Shown: one piece after another, positions 26,599 through 34,900 of the stretch | How the letters are laid out: every line of letters starts with the position of its first letter | Position numbering within the stretch: the stretch's first letter is position 1 | NCBI GenBank assembly: GCA_017651465.1 | Contig: JAGCCX010000066.1 | Coordinates: 1-59,233 of the forward strand | Reading direction: 5' to 3' | Length of the DNA stretch: 59,233 bases | Source of the DNA: Bacteroidales bacterium | Lineage (GTDB): Bacteria; Bacteroidota; Bacteroidia; Bacteroidales; UBA932 | The notes under the pieces: generated by a model | Databases searched by the model: none | Told to the model about the DNA's origin: nothing | The model's input: the letters and a program-made list of their open reading frames with translations, nothing else | Made by a program: the position numbers and the translations under genes

Positions 26599-27513
26599 AT
26601 GATACTGACTTCGATTCTGACGTGGGCGGTTGTGACTCTCTCGTCCGCTTTTATGAGGCAGAGCCCCGACTATGAGGCTCCTCTCGAGAACCAGATGCTA
26701 ATGGGAGCCCTGGTGCAGACCACCGGCGAGACTCACCGTTATTGGGTTAAGGTAACAGCCGAAGATTACACCGGCTGGGTCACCGAAATGAGCCTTCAAA
26801 CCCTCTCCGATGCCGAGAAGGATGCCTACCTTGAGGCTCCCAAATGGATATGTACCGCCGAATATGCTCGTGTACGCGAAAAGCCCTCGGAGCGCAGCGT
26901 GCCGCTGTGCGATTTTACGATGGGAAACATTGTGCGCAAGGCAGACGGCTGCAAGGACGGATGGGTCGAGCTTATACTGCCCGACGGCCGTATGGGCTGG
27001 GTGCTTTCGCATCAGGTGATGGATTTCCGCGCCTGGGCCACTAGCCGCAGCGGGCTGAACACCTCGGACGAAGTGGGCCGTTCCTTCTGCGCCCGTGAGG
27101 TCACTTCGCTCGCGTGCAGCTTTGTCGGCACTCCCTATATGTGGGGCGGCAACAGCATCAAGCACTTCGACTGCAGCGGGCTGGTCAAGTTCTGCTACTT
27201 TATGAACGGCATAATCCTTCCCCGCAACGGCAGGGAACAGATTTTTACCGGCGAGAGCGTCAAGGACGGCGAATGGAAGCCGGGCGACCTGCTGTTCTTC
27301 GGCACCAAGAAACCGTTGAAAGTCACCCACGTAGCATTGTACCTCGGAGATGGAAAGATAGTACATTCTTCGCAGAAGGTGCGCATCAATACCCTTACCG
27401 AATACGGCCGCGAGGTGGTGGGAGCTACCCGTGTCCTCGGCAACGTCGATTGCGGCAAGGGCATAAAATCAATAGTTAAGAGTCCGTATTACTTCCCTCA
27501 GTATGGCGACTAA
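26599..27513 (+). CDS. NlpC/P60 family peptidoglycan endopeptidase with SH3b-like domains
   Basis: 304 aa. Two SH3b-like modules lie at about residues 15-75 (YWVKVTAEDYTGWVTEMSL) and 90-155 (ARVREKPSERSVPLCDF ... GWVELILPDGRMGWVLSHQV). The catalytic NlpC/P60 domain follows with Cys192 in HFDCSGLVKFCY, His244 in VTHVALYLGDG, and His256 in KIVHSS. It cleaves peptide stems of peptidoglycan (gamma-D-Glu-diaminoacid bond in this family). The N-terminus is hydrophobic, probably an export signal. It overlaps radA by 11 bp. Confidence 0.88.
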   Translation: MILTSILTWAVVTLSSAFMRQSPDYEAPLENQMLMGALVQTTGETHRYWVKVTAEDYTGWVTEMSLQTLSDAEKDAYLEAPKWICTAEYARVREKPSERSVPLCDFTMGNIVRKADGCKDGWVELILPDGRMGWVLSHQVMDFRAWATSRSGLNTSDEVGRSFCAREVTSLACSFVGTPYMWGGNSIKHFDCSGLVKFCYFMNGIILPRNGREQIFTGESVKDGEWKPGDLLFFGTKKPLKVTHVALYLGDGKIVHSSQKVRINTLTEYGREVVGATRVLGNVDCGKGIKSIVKSPYYFPQYGD

Positions 27514-28879
27514 GGCAAAGACCCTCTGGTACTGCACCAGTTGCGGAAACGAGAGTCCCAAGTGGATGGGACGCTGCCCCGCCTGCGGGGAGTGGAACAC
27601 TATGGTGGAGGCTCCGGTCGAGGCCGCCAAGTCATCCGGGAGCAAGGGCTCGCAGAGGGCAGCGGCAAGTGACCGTAAACCCCGGAGGCTGGGCGAGATA
27701 GATCTCTCGTCCGAGCCCCGTCTGGTACTTGGTGTGGCCGAGCTCGACCGGCTGCTGGGAGGGGGAGTTGTCCCGGGGTCACTTATACTTATAGGAGGTG
27801 AGCCCGGCATAGGCAAATCGACTCTCAGCCTCCAGGTGCCTCTCGGCTGCCCGTCGCTCATTACCCTCTACGTTACCGGAGAGGAGAGCGAGAGGCAGGT
27901 GCGTATGCGCGCCGAGCGCCTTTCGCCGGGCGGCATTCCGGAAAGCTGCCTGATTTACTGCGAGACGCAGATCGAGGCGGTGCTCGCCCAGGCGCGTGAA
28001 ATCAAGCCCGACCTGATGATAGTCGATTCGGTGCAGACAATGTACACAGATACCCTTGATTCGACTCCGGGTTCGGTAAGCCAGATCAAAGAGGTGGCCG
28101 CCCTCCTGCTGCGATTTGCCAAAGACAGCGGCGTGCCCGTTATTCTCATAGGTCACATCACCAAGGACGGATACATCGCCGGCCCCAAGATCCTGGAGCA
28201 TATTGTGGACGTAGTGCTGCAGTTCGAGGGCGAGAACAGGGGCTCGTACCGTCTCCTAAGGAGTATCAAGAACCGCTTTGGAAGCACTTCCGAGCTGGCT
28301 GTGTTCGAAATGACCGGCAAGGGCCTGAGGGAGGTGCCCAATCCTTCCGAGATGCTCATACCTATGCACGAAGAGGGCCTGAGCGGAACGGCCATTTCGG
28401 CAATGCTTGACGGTACCAGGCCGCTTCTTTTTGAGGTGCAGGCCCTGGTGTCGTCGGCTGCTTATGGCACCGCGCAGCGCAGCGCCACCGGTTTTGACGT
28501 AAGGCGCCTGAATATGCTCCTGGCGGTGCTCGAAAAGAGGGCTGGCTTCCACCTGAGCGCCAAAGATGTGTTCCTGAATATGGCCGGGGGCCTCAAGGTC
28601 AGCGATCCCGCCTGCGACCTTGCGGTGATTGCGGCAGTGCTCTCGTCGAATTTCGACTACGCCCTGCCCCTCGACTGCTGTTTTGCCGGCGAGGTCGGCC
28701 TTAGCGGCGAGATACGCCCGGTAGGCCAGACCGACCGCCGCATAGCCGAGGCCGCTCGTCTTGGCTTCAAAAAGATATTCGTGAGTTCTTATTCCGCCCA
28801 GGACACTCCCGCGCCCTCCGGTATCAAGGTGATAAAAGTAGCCGACGTTCCCGAGCTGGTCAAAGCCCTGTTCCGCTAA
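27503..28879 (+). CDS. radA: DNA repair protein RadA
   Basis: 458 aa. The N-terminal zinc finger is WYCTSCGNESPKWMGRCPACG with four cysteines. The RecA-like core has Walker A GGEPGIGKST (98-107), the RadA-specific KNRFG (256-260), and a Lon-like C-terminal domain with FAGEVGLSGEIRPVGQ. It promotes branch migration in recombination repair. It starts inside the NlpC/P60 gene (11-bp overlap) and ends 4 bp before the palindromic repeat at 28884, which may act as its terminator. Confidence 0.95.
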   Translation: MATKAKTLWYCTSCGNESPKWMGRCPACGEWNTMVEAPVEAAKSSGSKGSQRAAASDRKPRRLGEIDLSSEPRLVLGVAELDRLLGGGVVPGSLILIGGEPGIGKSTLSLQVPLGCPSLITLYVTGEESERQVRMRAERLSPGGIPESCLIYCETQIEAVLAQAREIKPDLMIVDSVQTMYTDTLDSTPGSVSQIKEVAALLLRFAKDSGVPVILIGHITKDGYIAGPKILEHIVDVVLQFEGENRGSYRLLRSIKNRFGSTSELAVFEMTGKGLREVPNPSEMLIPMHEEGLSGTAISAMLDGTRPLLFEVQALVSSAAYGTAQRSATGFDVRRLNMLLAVLEKRAGFHLSAKDVFLNMAGGLKVSDPACDLAVIAAVLSSNFDYALPLDCCFAGEVGLSGEIRPVGQTDRRIAEAARLGFKKIFVSSYSAQDTPAPSGIKVIKVADVPELVKALFR

Positions 28880-28883
28880 GTTT

Positions 28884-29009
28884 TTTCAGTAAGTAATAAA
28901 GCAGTAATCACCCGTATAAGCCAGTTGGTGCTGTAATCCCCCGGACAAAACCATTGGATTACGGCACCAACTCGTTTCTAATGCCCTTTTGTGCAGTATA
29001 GCTTACTGA
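28884..29009. repeat. Palindromic repeat unit, left copy of HUH element
   Basis: The core at 28886-29009 is 124 bp and matches 29957-30080 at 122 positions; both differences lie in the hairpin loop. Outer inverted ends are TCAGTAAG and CTTACTGA. The inner stem is AGTTGGTGCTGTAATCC pairing with GGATTACGGCACCAACT, 17 bp with one G-T wobble. It lies directly after the radA stop. Confidence 0.95.
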
Positions 29010-29051
29010 GTGACTTGTCATTCAGCTAATGCGACATATCAAAAAAAGCCT

Positions 29052-29059
29052 TATATTTG
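29052..29059 (+). promoter_or_regulatory. Bacteroidetes -7 box for the HUH transposase gene
   Basis: TATATTTG, 12 bp upstream of the ATG at 29072. The in-frame TTG at 29057 lies inside this box and is rejected as start. Confidence 0.6.
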
Positions 29060-29071
29060 GAAAAAACAACT

Positions 29072-29944
29072 ATGAAAAACGACCAATCTTACTTTCACGT
29101 TTATTCTGACGGCAAAAAGGCCGATATCCCATTCGGTACAGATGAGCTTAAAGTCTTTGCGGTTAACTCGATAGCTATAGTGGCTTTCCAAGTGGGCGCC
29201 GTCGTTTTATGCTATGATATAAACGAAACCCACTTGCATGTAGTTATCCGCGCAAGTCCTGAGGCGGCACAAAAGTTTCGTGCCAAACTAACAATAAGAA
29301 TATGCTGTCATTATTCAAAGTTCGGTTTGAAAGAACACTTAGGAAAGGGATTCTTTCTTGCCTGTGATCCTATTAGCGACCGGGATGAGTTGCTTCAAAA
29401 AATAATCTATACTTTTAGGAACTGCCTGGATTTTTATCGGAAGACTCCCTGGAATTATAAATGGGGCGTGGGTAACTTATACTTTTGTGAGCGCTCTGAT
29501 TTGCCTTCAGGATTACGCATAGGAGACCTCTCGAGACGCTCGCAGATGGCATTGTTACATACTTATGAGGTTTTGCCTCAAGATTGGGAGTATAACCAGG
29601 ACGGGATGCTGTTGCCAAAGTGCTTTGTGGATTATGAAGAAGTTGAACGATTATTCATTACACCACGTGCTTTTCTGGCTTTTTTGTTCGTCAGGAAAGA
29701 AGACGAGCAGCAAATGAAAATGCAATTCAGCTCTAGATATATCCAAGAAAGAAACCTCGAAGAACTGCGCAGCAGAGGTAACAAACTATGTAACAGCTAT
29801 TTTGGTAAGTATCTCAAAGCGGCTTGCTTTGAAGAAAGAATAAAAGTGGCGGCGAAAATGCTGAAGGAGGGATCGGGAGTCAAGTCGGAGAGCCTTGCAA
29901 AAGCACTGTATCTCAAAAAAGAGGACTTGTTTAAACTACTTTGA
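29072..29944 (+). CDS. Y1 (HUH) transposase, REP-associated/IS200-like type
   Basis: 290 aa from the ATG at 29072. The HUH motif is THLHVVI with His54 and His56 (YDINETHLHVVIRAS); the usual nucleophile position is Tyr113 in IIYTFRNCLDF, equivalent to the YIxxNP region of RAYT proteins. The N-terminal YFHVYSDG strand also fits the family. About 150 further residues follow, helical and basic, ending in a possible helix-turn-helix (KSESLAKALYLKKEDLFKLL) that could bind the repeat. Such enzymes nick and rejoin single-stranded DNA at hairpins. Composition is markedly AT-richer than radA and smpB, which suggests acquisition from outside. The catalytic residues are assigned by motif only. Confidence 0.8.
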   Translation: MKNDQSYFHVYSDGKKADIPFGTDELKVFAVNSIAIVAFQVGAVVLCYDINETHLHVVIRASPEAAQKFRAKLTIRICCHYSKFGLKEHLGKGFFLACDPISDRDELLQKIIYTFRNCLDFYRKTPWNYKWGVGNLYFCERSDLPSGLRIGDLSRRSQMALLHTYEVLPQDWEYNQDGMLLPKCFVDYEEVERLFITPRAFLAFLFVRKEDEQQMKMQFSSRYIQERNLEELRSRGNKLCNSYFGKYLKAACFEERIKVAAKMLKEGSGVKSESLAKALYLKKEDLFKLL

Positions 29945-29954
29945 TTGGATGTTG

Positions 29955-30080
29955 TTTCAGTAAGTAATAAAGCAGTAATCACCCGTATAAGCCAGTTGGT
30001 GCTGTAATCCCCCGGTCAAAACTATTGGATTACGGCACCAACTCGTTTCTAATGCCCTTTTGTGCAGTATAGCTTACTGA
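29955..30080. repeat. Palindromic repeat unit, right copy of HUH element
   Basis: Core 29957-30080, 124 bp. Same orientation as the left copy. Differences from it are A to T and C to T, both in the loop between the 17-bp stem arms. It ends 10 bp before the smpB stop, so it may also terminate smpB transcription. Confidence 0.95.
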
Positions 30081-30090
30081 ACAACCATAC

Positions 30091-30552
30091 CTAACCGCGC
30101 TCCATCTCGCGCCGGATGTCTTTTTCGCGTATGGTGGCGCGTTTGTCGTATTCTTTTTTACCGCGGGCAAGTGCTATATGCAGCTTGGCGAAGCCGTTTT
30201 CGGCTATGTAGGCGCGTACCGCCACTATGGTGAGGCCTTTGGTCTTGGTAGCCTGCTCAAGGTGCCTGAGTTCACGCTTGGTGAGCAGCAGCTTGCGGTC
30301 CCTGGCCGGCTCGTGGCTGCCCCATTTGGACGCCCAGAAGTAGGTGGAGATATTCATCCCTTTGACGTAGAGCTCGCCGCCGTAAAAATAGCACCAGGCG
30401 TCGGCCAGAGAGGCTTTTCCGGCTCTCAGCGACTTGATTTCCGTGCCCACCAGCACAATGCCGGCGTCGTACTGCTCCAAAAACTCGTAGTCGTACGATG
30501 CCCGCTTGTTGCTGATCTGCACGCGGTGCTGTTTTTCTTTGCGGGAACTCAT
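30091..30552 (-). CDS. smpB: SsrA-binding protein SmpB
   Basis: 153 aa. Binds tmRNA and delivers it to stalled ribosomes in trans-translation. The family features are KRASYDYEFLEQYDAGIVLV, GTEIKSLRAGKASLADAWCY and KLHIALARGKKEYDKRATIR near the C-terminal tail. Its ATG overlaps the metK stop by 4 nt, so smpB is cotranscribed with metK. No ssrA gene is seen in the window. Confidence 0.95.
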   Translation of the reverse strand: MSSRKEKQHRVQISNKRASYDYEFLEQYDAGIVLVGTEIKSLRAGKASLADAWCYFYGGELYVKGMNISTYFWASKWGSHEPARDRKLLLTKRELRHLEQATKTKGLTIVAVRAYIAENGFAKLHIALARGKKEYDKRATIREKDIRREMERG

Positions 30553-31843: not shown

Positions 31844-31854
31844 GTTATTGGGCG

Positions 31855-31862
31855 CAAAGATA
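31855..31862 (-). promoter_or_regulatory. Bacteroidetes -7 box for metK-smpB
   Basis: TATCTTTG on the minus strand. Transcription would begin near 31850, so the ~57-nt leader contains just the candidate SAM-II riboswitch. Confidence 0.6.
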
Positions 31863-31919
31863 GATAAAAAATGTTAACAATTTGTCAAAATCTTAGTTGT
31901 AAGAGATTTTTTCTTGAAC

Positions 31920-31927
31920 TACCTTTG
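31920..31927 (+). promoter_or_regulatory. Bacteroidetes -7 box for the nucleic-acid locus
   Basis: TACCTTTG with a TTG at 31896-31898 about 21 bp upstream as -33 element. The leader before the ATG at 31966 would be about 33 nt. Confidence 0.6.
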
Positions 31928-31965
31928 CACCATAAAAATAAAAACAAAACGTTACTTTTTATTTT

Positions 31966-34900
31966 ATGAAACAAACATTTAAAGCACTGTTGCTGTCTCT
32001 GGCGGCAATGTTCTTTGTCGTGTCTGCCTACGCGCAGGTCACGACCGCTTCTCTCGGTGGCCGAGTCACCGATGCCGAGGGGGGGGCTATCCCCGGCGCC
32101 ACCATCGTGGCGGTCCATACCCCATCCGGTTCCCAGTACTATGCGATGACCAACAATGAAGGCCGTTACAGCATTACCGGTATGCGTACCGGCGGCCCTT
32201 ACACCGTTGAGGTGTCCTGCCTGGGTTATCACAAGGTAAACTTCACCGACGTCACTCTTCAGCTTGCCGAGGTATTCGCCCTGGACGCCGCCCTCAAGGA
32301 CGACGCGGAGCTTCTCAGCGAGGCTATAGTGATCTCTACGGCATCGTCCAAATTCCCCACCGAAAAGACGGGAGCCGCTACCAACATCAGCAACCGTGAA
32401 ATGATGAGTATGCCCACGGTCAACCGCACCATTACCGATATCACCCGCCTCTCTCCTTACGGCGGCAACGGAATGAGCTTCGCCGGTACCGACGGACGTA
32501 CTGCAAACTTCACAGTTGACGGTGCTAACTTCAACAACAACTTCGGTCTTTCTTCCGGTCTTCCCGGCGGCGGCAATCCTATCTCCATCGACGCTCTCGA
32601 GGAACTCCAGGTTGTTATTTCCCCTTACGATGTACGCCAGACCAACTTCAAGGGAGGCGGCGTGAACGCCATCACCAAGAGTGGTACCAACACCTTCAAG
32701 GGCACCGCTTACGTATATCACCGCAACGAGAATATGCGCGGCAGCACGGTCAACGGAGTCGACATCTCCGGCGCCCGCGACACCGACCGCAACACCACTT
32801 ACGGTATGACCCTCGGCGGCCCCATCATCAAGAACAAGCTGTTCTTCTTCGTCAACTTCGAGTACTCCCAGACCCCTTCGGTGGCTATACGCTGGAGAGG
32901 TTCCGTTGACGGCAAGGGTATCGAGTCCCAGAATATTTCTTACTGTACTCTCGAGGACCTTGCAAGGGTTCAGGAGCATATGAAGACCAAGTACAACTAC
33001 GACACTGGTTCGTACACCGATTTCCCCGCCGACCAGAACAATATGAAGGCTCTCGCCCGTATTGACTGGAACATCAACGACAAGCATCACCTTGCTCTCC
33101 GTTACAACTACACCAACAATCTGATATGGAACGGCCCCAACGCCTCTTCGATGGACGGCGGCACCCGTTCTCCGTATTCCCGTACTTCGCTCTACTCGAT
33201 GGCCTTCGCCAACACGATGTACTCGATGAACAACCGCGTCCACACCGGTTCCATCGACCTTAACAGCCGTCTGGGCGACAACCTGAGCAACCAGTTCCTC
33301 GCCACCTTCTCCAAGCTCGACGACGTGCGCGGCTCCAATTCGGCCGACTTCCCGTTCATCGACATCCAGGACGGCACCGGCAACAATATCCAGTATATGT
33401 CGCTCGGCTATGAGCTCTTTACCTGGAACAACGCCGTGAACAACACCGTGGCCAATGTCAAGGACGATATCATCTGGTATGCAGGCAACCATAAGGTTAC
33501 CGCTGGCGTAAGCTACGAGTATCAGATGGCCGACAACCAGTATATGCGTAACGGTACCGGTTATTACCGCTACGGCAGCGTCGACGACTTCATCAGCGGC
33601 GCCACCCCCGAGGTCGTGGCCCTTACCTACGGCTACATCAAGGACGGCACCAACGTTCCCGAGTTCGCCCCCGCGGCCAGGGTACAGTTCCACAAGCCCG
33701 GCGTGTACATTCAGGACGAATGGGCAGCTACCGAGCGCCTCAAGATTACCGCCGGCGTGCGTCTGGACGGTCTGTTCTTCGACAACGGAGACCTTATGAC
33801 CAACGCCGCCATCAAGAATCTTGACTACTATCCTCTGACCTACGGCTATGAGCTTCAGCACATCGACACCGGTGTGTGGCCTACCGCCAACCTTACCATT
33901 TCGCCCCGTATCGGCTTCAGCTGGGATGTCCTTGGCGACAAGAGCCTGAAGGTGCGCGGCGGTACCGGTCTTTTCTCCGGCCGTATTCCTCTGGTGTTCT
34001 TCACCAATATGCCTACCAACGGCGGTCTGGTCCAGTACAGGGCCGCCCTCAACGCCAAGAGCAAGATCGGCGACAATCTGGTTGATATGACCCAGTTCAA
34101 GGGCGGCGTGCTCACCAGGGAAGAGCTCTACAACAAGCTCATCGGTATGGGTCTGCCCGCTACTGCAAGTCCCGAGTCAGGCACCGTGCCTTCTTCCATT
34201 GCTGCCGTGGATCCTAAGTTCAGGATGCCTCAGGAGTGGAAGACTTCGCTCGCCCTTGACTATAGCTTCCCCACATCCTTCCCGTTCAGCGTGTCGGTAG
34301 AGGGTATGTTCAACAAGACAGTCAACGACGTTACGATGACCGACTGGAGTATGAAGCCGGTCGAGAGCTTCGTGACCTTCAACGGCGCTGACAACCGTCC
34401 TGTCTATCCTGGCGACTTCCGCAGCACCACCAAGGCATTCGTGCTGAGCAATACGGCCCTGGGTTACGGCTGGAGCGGCAACGTGTCCGTGAAGATGCAG
34501 CCCATCCCCGAGGTCGACCTGTACGCAGCATACACCCACGTAGCCCGTTACGAGGTTACCGGTATGCCCGGTTCCGATGCCGAGTCGGCCTTCACCTATG
34601 TGCCTACCGTCAAGGGTCCCAACTACATCAAGCTCCACAGCTCGCAGTACGTGACTCCCGACCGTGTGATTGCATCCGCAACCCACAACGATCATAGCGG
34701 CAATCACTTCAGCCTCATCTACGAGGCCTGGAGGGGCGGCTACAACTATTCTTATATGCTTGCCAACGATATGAACGGCGACGGATATCAGTACGACGCC
34801 CTCTATATCCCTACCGACCAGCAGATTGCCAACCGTGAGTTCCGTTTCGTGTCGGACGGCGACCGCGACCGCTTCATCGACTTCGTCAACAACGACTCAT

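Follow-up and report, generated by a model that had tools for sequence, protein, structure and literature searches.

A single-copy Y1-type transposase gene between two long nested hairpins at the radA–smpB junction of a Bacteroidales bacterium

The radA–smpB locus

The window (the whole stretch of 59 233 nt analysed here, contig JAGCCX010000066.1 of the Bacteroidales assembly GCA_017651465.1) carries the convergent genes radA (27503–28879, plus strand; TIGR00416, 548 bits) and smpB (30091–30552, minus strand; PF01668). Between them lies a plus-strand gene (29072–29944) for a protein of 290 residues, which starts with an ATG at 29072 (alternatively a TTG at 29057) and has its stop codon at 29942–29944. 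The gene is flanked by two copies of a self-complementary unit of 124 bp in the same orientation, at 28886–29009 and 29957–30080. An earlier note, made from the letters alone, had described two near-identical compound palindromes around a gene between convergent radA and smpB; the arrangement is real, with the coordinates slightly corrected, and both neighbours are verified by their domain matches. The two units are identical at 122 of 124 positions and both changes (28945 A/T and 28952 C/T) are in the apical loop, exactly as the note had it. With six extra base pairs on the left, the direct repeat becomes 130 bp (28880–29009 and 29951–30080, both plus strand, three differences) and each copy holds one palindrome; the left copy begins immediately past the radA stop codon.

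Folded as DNA, each unit has a 9 bp foot, a weakly paired middle and an inner stem of 17 pairs with a single G–T, which agrees with the nested palindrome and wobble pair noted earlier. The outer feet are TCAGTAAG/CTTACTGA. In the left unit the 5′ foot (28886–28894) pairs with the 3′ foot (29001–29009) and the inner stem is formed by 28923–28939 with 28956–28972; in the right unit the inner stem is formed by 29994–30010 with 30027–30043. The fold check proposed in the note gave z values of −3.6 to −4.9 over both strands of both units, with 0, 1, 0 and 0 of 200 shuffles folding equally well for the four unit strands. Among the four copies from the window and from the sister species G023, eight of the 124 columns vary, which is too few for a selection test; none is in the 17 bp stem, and the one in the foot changes a G–T pair to G–C with pairing retained.

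Hairpins in this position could be terminators, and the earlier note had suggested that the units terminate both radA and smpB. As a full explanation, bidirectional terminators would have been duplicated around an inserted gene and would act as RNA hairpins for radA, smpB and the transposase, not as enzyme substrates. The units do lie between convergent genes, and convergence is the commonest arrangement in the family (23 of the 59 loci at which the gene has an ORF to either side, in a noisy ORF-based count). However, a terminator scan of the window gave nothing terminator-like at the two units, the other 36 of the 59 loci in the same count are not convergent and similar repeats attend the gene family at many unrelated sites. 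We regard this explanation as very improbable. Rfam gave just three matches, all under their gathering scores.

The note also took the AT-rich composition as a sign of acquisition. The cassette is indeed AT-rich (41.5% G+C, compared with 54.2% for the window), but 30 of 581 overlapping 1.2 kb segments are equally low. Acquisition is supported by the cassette-free radA–smpB junction of two relatives and by the sharp drop in dS across the cassette, both described below.

The enzyme

The window protein has no Pfam or NCBIfam match reaching the cut-off and falls into no PHROG or PADLOC family. Its best profile match in the PDB, and the single match at E ≤ 1, is entry 2ec2, which is named as a hypothetical transposase of 136 residues; the match is weak (E = 0.26) and aligns at the HUH motif. 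The earlier note had named a Y1 transposase with His54, His56 and Tyr113. These residues are correct: all three are invariant in an alignment of 12 family sequences and Asn117 is nearly so. The tyrosine motif reads Y113-TFR-N117-C118, in which the Asn is retained and the Pro replaced. PF01797 (Y1_Tnp) matches none of the 12 family members scanned, and the link to Y1 enzymes comes from profile–profile comparison. The profile of the 12 sequences aligns with five paralogues from the same genome over almost the full length (hhalign E = 1.8e-44) and with three further paralogues of Y1_Tnp type at E = 4e-5, in an alignment that matches up the HUH and Tyr positions. Three of the eight paralogues clear the PF01797 cut-off; another four match below it, at E ≤ 0.1. 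The assignment of the window protein as a predicted Y1 (HUH, single-tyrosine) enzyme is well supported by these comparisons.

The gene is under purifying selection, with dN/dS values of 0.07–0.19 in the pairs with an estimable dS, although selection is looser than on radA (dN/dS of 0.012) and smpB. This selection would suit a domesticated HUH enzyme that no longer transposes and has a host task, such as acting on structured single-stranded DNA at forks or giving structure to gene borders, with the turnover and spread of the units left to homologous recombination and gene flow. It also suits domestication that the genome has no near-identical paralogue of the enzyme and that a search of plasmids, phages and viral contigs found no relative of it; a defence or phage origin was rejected on this last result together with the lack of a PADLOC or PHROG family.

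Unit copies and paralogues in the same genome

The genome (2.5 Mb in 85 contigs, 95% complete) has two copies of the 124 bp unit, both flanking the enzyme gene. Among 300 genomes of the genus the unit occurs in two, this one and that of G023, again with two copies that flank the gene. The earlier note had named many solitary copies as the sign of a REP-like family mobilized in trans. This fails for the present unit: the search beyond the locus found other copies in one further genome of the 300, but no solitary ones.

The genome contains eight further Y1-type genes, which are 25–28% identical to the window protein where it detects them. Self-comparison of their flanks identified related repeats on both sides in seven of the eight (on contigs C15, C31, C51, C26 and C79, and as arrays on C36 and C17); the paralogue on C3 has a palindrome at one side only. 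The C36 gene (L010) lies between tandem arrays of a palindrome of ∼52 bp (515–1340 and 2315–2540), and the C17 gene (L013) between different, GC-rich arrays of a palindrome of ∼50 bp (820–1200 and 2170–2390). A 158 bp piece of the C36 array matches 16 places on contigs C36, C17, C65 and C53. We had considered this as dispersal of the C36 repeat, but the claim was dropped because the matches off C36 sit at contig ends (C17 2–190, C53 5–352 and C65 8403–8698 of 8728), apart from one internal match of 58 bases (C17 7085–7142), and those at the ends may be pieces of one array broken by the assembly.

The family across the genus

At E ≤ 1e-30 there are at least 66 homologous genes, including that of the window, in at least 48 of the 300 genus genomes. 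With the family profile, one of 395 genomes in a sample of the phylum passes 1e-15, and this is the genome studied here; two of 344 genomes in a sample of the order pass 1e-25, both in the genus. By these samples, at these strict cut-offs, the family is apparently restricted to the genus.

When the two flanks of each gene (1.2 kb each) were searched against each other at E ≤ 1e-3, a direct repeat common to them was found in 41 of the 66 elements, compared with 74 of 4216 control pairs in which upstream flanks were set against the downstream flanks of other genomes; the best-scoring of these 74 are mostly between closely related cassettes. The repeat sequence differs from locus to locus, except between related cassettes. 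Of the 41 repeats, the 38 of at least 60 nt were folded (three shorter ones were dropped), with same-length controls from within the genes and 60 shuffles each: 22 of the 38 have a z value below −2 and 13 below −3, versus three and none of the 38 controls, a comparison that is imperfect because the controls are coding. The other 16 scored units have no fold at z < −2, and in 25 of the 66 elements the two-sided repeat was undetected. Some clades have tandem arrays of shorter palindromes instead (the L094 type, with a period of ∼62 bp).

The nearest clade to the window (weakly supported, 86/59) has nine members, of which seven lack a detectable two-sided repeat, leaving only the window and G023; four of the seven (L016, L018, L019 and L020) carry a long palindrome, but on the downstream side alone. 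These six loci have in common a foot, T[TC]C[AG]GTA, with a near-complement at the other end, while the stems between the feet cannot be aligned. A run of C lies at the apex in five of the six (not L019), with a run of G opposite it only in L016, L018 and L020. Where a RAYT repeat would have the 5′ guide GT[AG]G, the foot holds GTAA in the window, in L019 and in a remnant in G104 (see below), GTAG in L016 and GTAT in L018 and L020.

Dispersal, gain and homogenization of the units

Searches with other units of the family gave one solitary copy. The L096 unit has two copies in G095 and the L085-type unit has two in G142, four in G115 and two in G261, all adjoining the gene. The L028 unit has two copies by the gene in G231 and a third, solitary and well folded, on a different contig; from this one instance, mobilization of units in trans has probably occurred. 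Units are also gained or lost at orthologous loci of sister genomes. The cleanest case is an indel of 208 bp at the 3′ end of the gene in G188 relative to G042, which contains the downstream one of two repeat copies that are only weakly alike (64%).

The two copies within a genome are in some pairs more alike than copies across genomes: 92.7 and 98.6% versus 86–87% for L093/L099, and 92.8 and 94.1% versus 87–91% for L104/L105. For L085 (97.7% versus 84–90%) and L080 (94.5% versus 76–79%) this holds in one partner only, and L032/L033, L041/L091 and L094/L095 show the reverse, with copies across genomes more alike. The units of the window and G023 are 97.7 and 96.2% identical within the genomes and 94.6–97.7% across them, and two columns are common to both copies of each genome while differing between the genomes. 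Homogenization within genomes is thus not general.

Recent exchange with a sister species

Compared with G023, the window has dS values of 0.647 for nlp, 0.752 for radA, 0.089 for the enzyme gene, 0.185 for smpB and 0.628 for metK. In ten other comparisons among relatives smpB has a dS of 0.8–1.4, in most cases similar to that of its neighbours or a little lower. The identity of the two sequences jumps between the mismatches at 28861 and 28911, which is the border of radA and the cassette, and drops again near the start of smpB; together, the sliding identity, mismatch positions and dS by gene delimit a tract of low divergence at approximately 28862–30540 that comprises the cassette and smpB. 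The low dS of the enzyme gene and smpB and the jump at the cassette therefore show that the cassette and smpB have recently been exchanged between the sister species. A 6.9 kb locus of the metagenome-assembled uncultured Bacteroidia bacterium RUG13810 includes the G023 locus and is letter-identical to it. Against the sister species (L014), identity falls to ∼55% at 31851–32900 of the window, at a receptor-like ORF to the right of metK, a stretch that is not conserved between the two.

The left border at the cassette edge is suggestive of an insertion with co-conversion of one flank. A single case does not distinguish this from ordinary recombination, and no consistent pattern emerges from 12 other pairs. 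We had also considered whether the enzyme gene, as a rule, has diverged less than the genes around it, and dropped the idea: in the 12 further pairs it holds for four, where the enzyme dS is below that of all aligned neighbouring ORFs (L085/L087, L085/L090, L107/L110 and, narrowly, L039/L081), and fails for eight. That the reduced dS is not general, and that the exchanged tract takes in smpB as homologous recombination would, both favour a domesticated enzyme. A more active reading of the same border is a homing-like HUH cassette, which would copy hairpin, gene and hairpin into the matching empty junction of a relative and convert the smpB flank, with the twin hairpins kept alike by repeated strand exchange. 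If this were true, the mobile entity would be the cassette as a whole, not dispersed REPs, and every lineage would drive fast turnover of its own hairpin with the foot fixed. We consider it unlikely.

The site in relatives

The earlier note had proposed a comparison of radA–smpB junctions in relatives, and this shows the cassette to be missing in G194 and G295, which rank directly behind G023 as radA matches (over the last 108 residues). In these two, the 3′ ends of radA and smpB face each other at a distance of nine and 80 bp, respectively, by the ends of the matches. In G194 the stop codons of the two genes overlap and there are no obvious remains of a cassette; this genome has a 52% identical relative at another place, beside what we take to be an isocitrate dehydrogenase-like gene. 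The G295 junction is occupied by an imperfect hairpin of 80 bp (L051 1824–1904), perhaps a terminator or what is left of a solitary unit.

In further relatives the gene lies close to smpB or radA, but in varying arrangements. The order is radA–[8–11 kb]–gene–smpB in G110 and G159 and smpB–gene–metK in G155 and G070, and in G004 the enzyme gene is inverted and adjoins radA. G104 has a broken member ∼1 kb behind radA (L130 4462–4777, minus strand), consisting of a 126 bp palindrome with a foot of the family type followed by no more than the initial 35 or so residues of the enzyme. Next comes an ORF of 761 residues that by eye is similar to a kinase-like ORF adjoining the family member of G047 (L016); overall, the genes past the remnant include by-eye relatives of both genes that adjoin this member. 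In the tree, the members on the smpB side and on the radA side do not form one clade. A single old arrival followed by rearrangement, decay and loss is possible, and is favoured by the G104 remnant; repeated arrival of the cassette at the site is possible as well.

These data bear on two of the explanations. For a domesticated enzyme, the difficulties are its patchy presence (at least 48 of the 300 genus genomes), the radA–smpB junctions without a cassette, close relatives at different sites and the solitary unit in G231, which together indicate past mobility. We hold domestication to be a credible competitor, if one that falls somewhat short of an even chance. The empty site of G194, with no obvious remains, fits an ordinary peel-and-paste insertion sequence of the IS200/IS605 family, with the hairpins as its left and right ends. 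The HUH and Tyr motifs and the two similarly oriented palindromes that border the gene are also as in such elements. However, the protein has 290 residues and not about 150, its tyrosine motif is Y---N and not the Y---Q described by Quentin et al. (2018; PMC6006769), there is one copy, with the nearest paralogues in the genome only 25–28% identical, and the ends are long (124–130 bp) and nearly identical to each other. Membership of IS200/IS605 was rejected on the tyrosine motif, size and copy number, and we give an ordinary insertion sequence very little weight.

Comparison with known systems and proposed function

The reading that we prefer, and consider likely, is that the locus is a single-copy hairpin–gene–hairpin cassette that works like a RAYT/REP pair and belongs to a Y1 subfamily apparently undescribed so far and restricted to the genus. 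No description of the enzyme family was recognized in the open-licence literature. The earlier note had likened the locus to a RAYT/REP unit with a longer, nested repeat. This is the right comparison as regards anatomy, but the PF01797 match, the Y---NP motif and the dispersed repeats are all lacking, which is why we do not file the family under RAYT/TnpA-REP; on the evidence here it is RAYT-like by anatomy and a variant of that kind.

As described in PMC6006769, RAYT/TnpA-REP systems (REPtrons, class 2) share with the cassette a low-copy Y1 HUH enzyme flanked by its own palindromes, a repeat private to each enzyme type and an Asn four residues past the catalytic Tyr. They differ in that the window protein is unseen by PF01797, has 290 residues and carries Y---NC instead of Y---NP; its units are 124–130 bp long and hardly dispersed, whereas REPs are short and scattered. 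The feet of the nearest clade read GTA[AGT], to be set beside the canonical GT[AG]G of RAYTs. The Y1 classes in that survey were defined from a PF01797 search of complete genomes at E < 0.01, and any family that PF01797 fails to detect would be missing from it. Subclass 2.6, reported there for Bacteroidetes with ‘atypical secondary structures’, is probably from the same phylum and also has palindromes without a canonical GTAG and a low copy number; its members are detected by PF01797, have a median of 179 residues and the motif YIH[QN]NP, and have copies of the structure elsewhere in the genome. TIRYT elements (TIRtrons), according to Di Nocera et al. (2013; PMC3733652), combine a Y1 enzyme with long private flanking repeats, some self-complementary and some outside any repeat family; that paper also names a motif, GGGGWSAS. 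Their flanks are described as terminal inverted repeats, while those of the window are nested palindromes in direct orientation: the two units align at 98% as direct and at 64% as inverted copies. According to Corneloup et al. (2021; PMC8266576), single-stranded REPs are processed by the cognate TnpA-REP enzymes, and the two have co-evolved.

On the preferred reading, a cassette akin to the RAYT/REP pair, each 124 bp unit would fold into its nested hairpin when the locus becomes single-stranded, and the enzyme would recognize its own hairpin through the stem and foot. The two histidines would hold the metal, and Tyr113 would cut near the foot and rejoin the strands. Cuts at both units would move hairpin, gene and hairpin as one block; a cut at one unit could lead to copying, loss or homogenization of units by the gene and, occasionally, to placement elsewhere. 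We infer the single-stranded substrate, the cut site and the role of the enzyme, rather than ordinary recombination, in driving turnover. For this reading count the anatomy, the catalytic motif with its paralogue matches, the two-sided repeats and their folds, the gain or loss of units, the solitary unit in G231, the low dN/dS, the empty junctions and the low dS of the enzyme gene; against it count the lack of further unit copies in the genome, the 25 elements with the two-sided repeat undetected, the 16 units that have no fold at z < −2, the limited extent of homogenization and the failure of the protein to reach any family in the databases searched. On this reading the subfamily seldom disperses its hairpins.

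It is an open question how RAYT-type enzymes select, spread and maintain their hairpins. The best known cases are of one enzyme with many scattered repeats; what is new here is breadth, with dozens of cassettes in one genus, the majority with their own hairpin repeat. Enzyme lineages number in the dozens within this genus, and many are adjoined by a long hairpin private to them, in varying copy number and at a site that relatives have empty, which makes for a good natural system. Since enzyme and substrate come as paired natural variants at many distances, the co-evolution of HUH nucleases and their targets becomes directly testable. The results also suggest that surveys based on the Y1_Tnp model of Pfam miss a branch of the family.

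Other features of family loci

Two members look damaged: L107 (G042) has an internal stop codon, and L127 (G070) has its matches in two frames. In L023, L024 and L025 a long palindrome at the 3′ end of the gene occurs again, inverted, ∼1.3 kb upstream of the start, with the copies 92–99% identical. In L023 this pair encloses the transposase gene and a gene that is presumably elongation factor P-like. An ORF of 139 residues (L023 1068–1487), by eye resembling a DNA-binding protein with two repeats, overlaps the start of the transposase gene.
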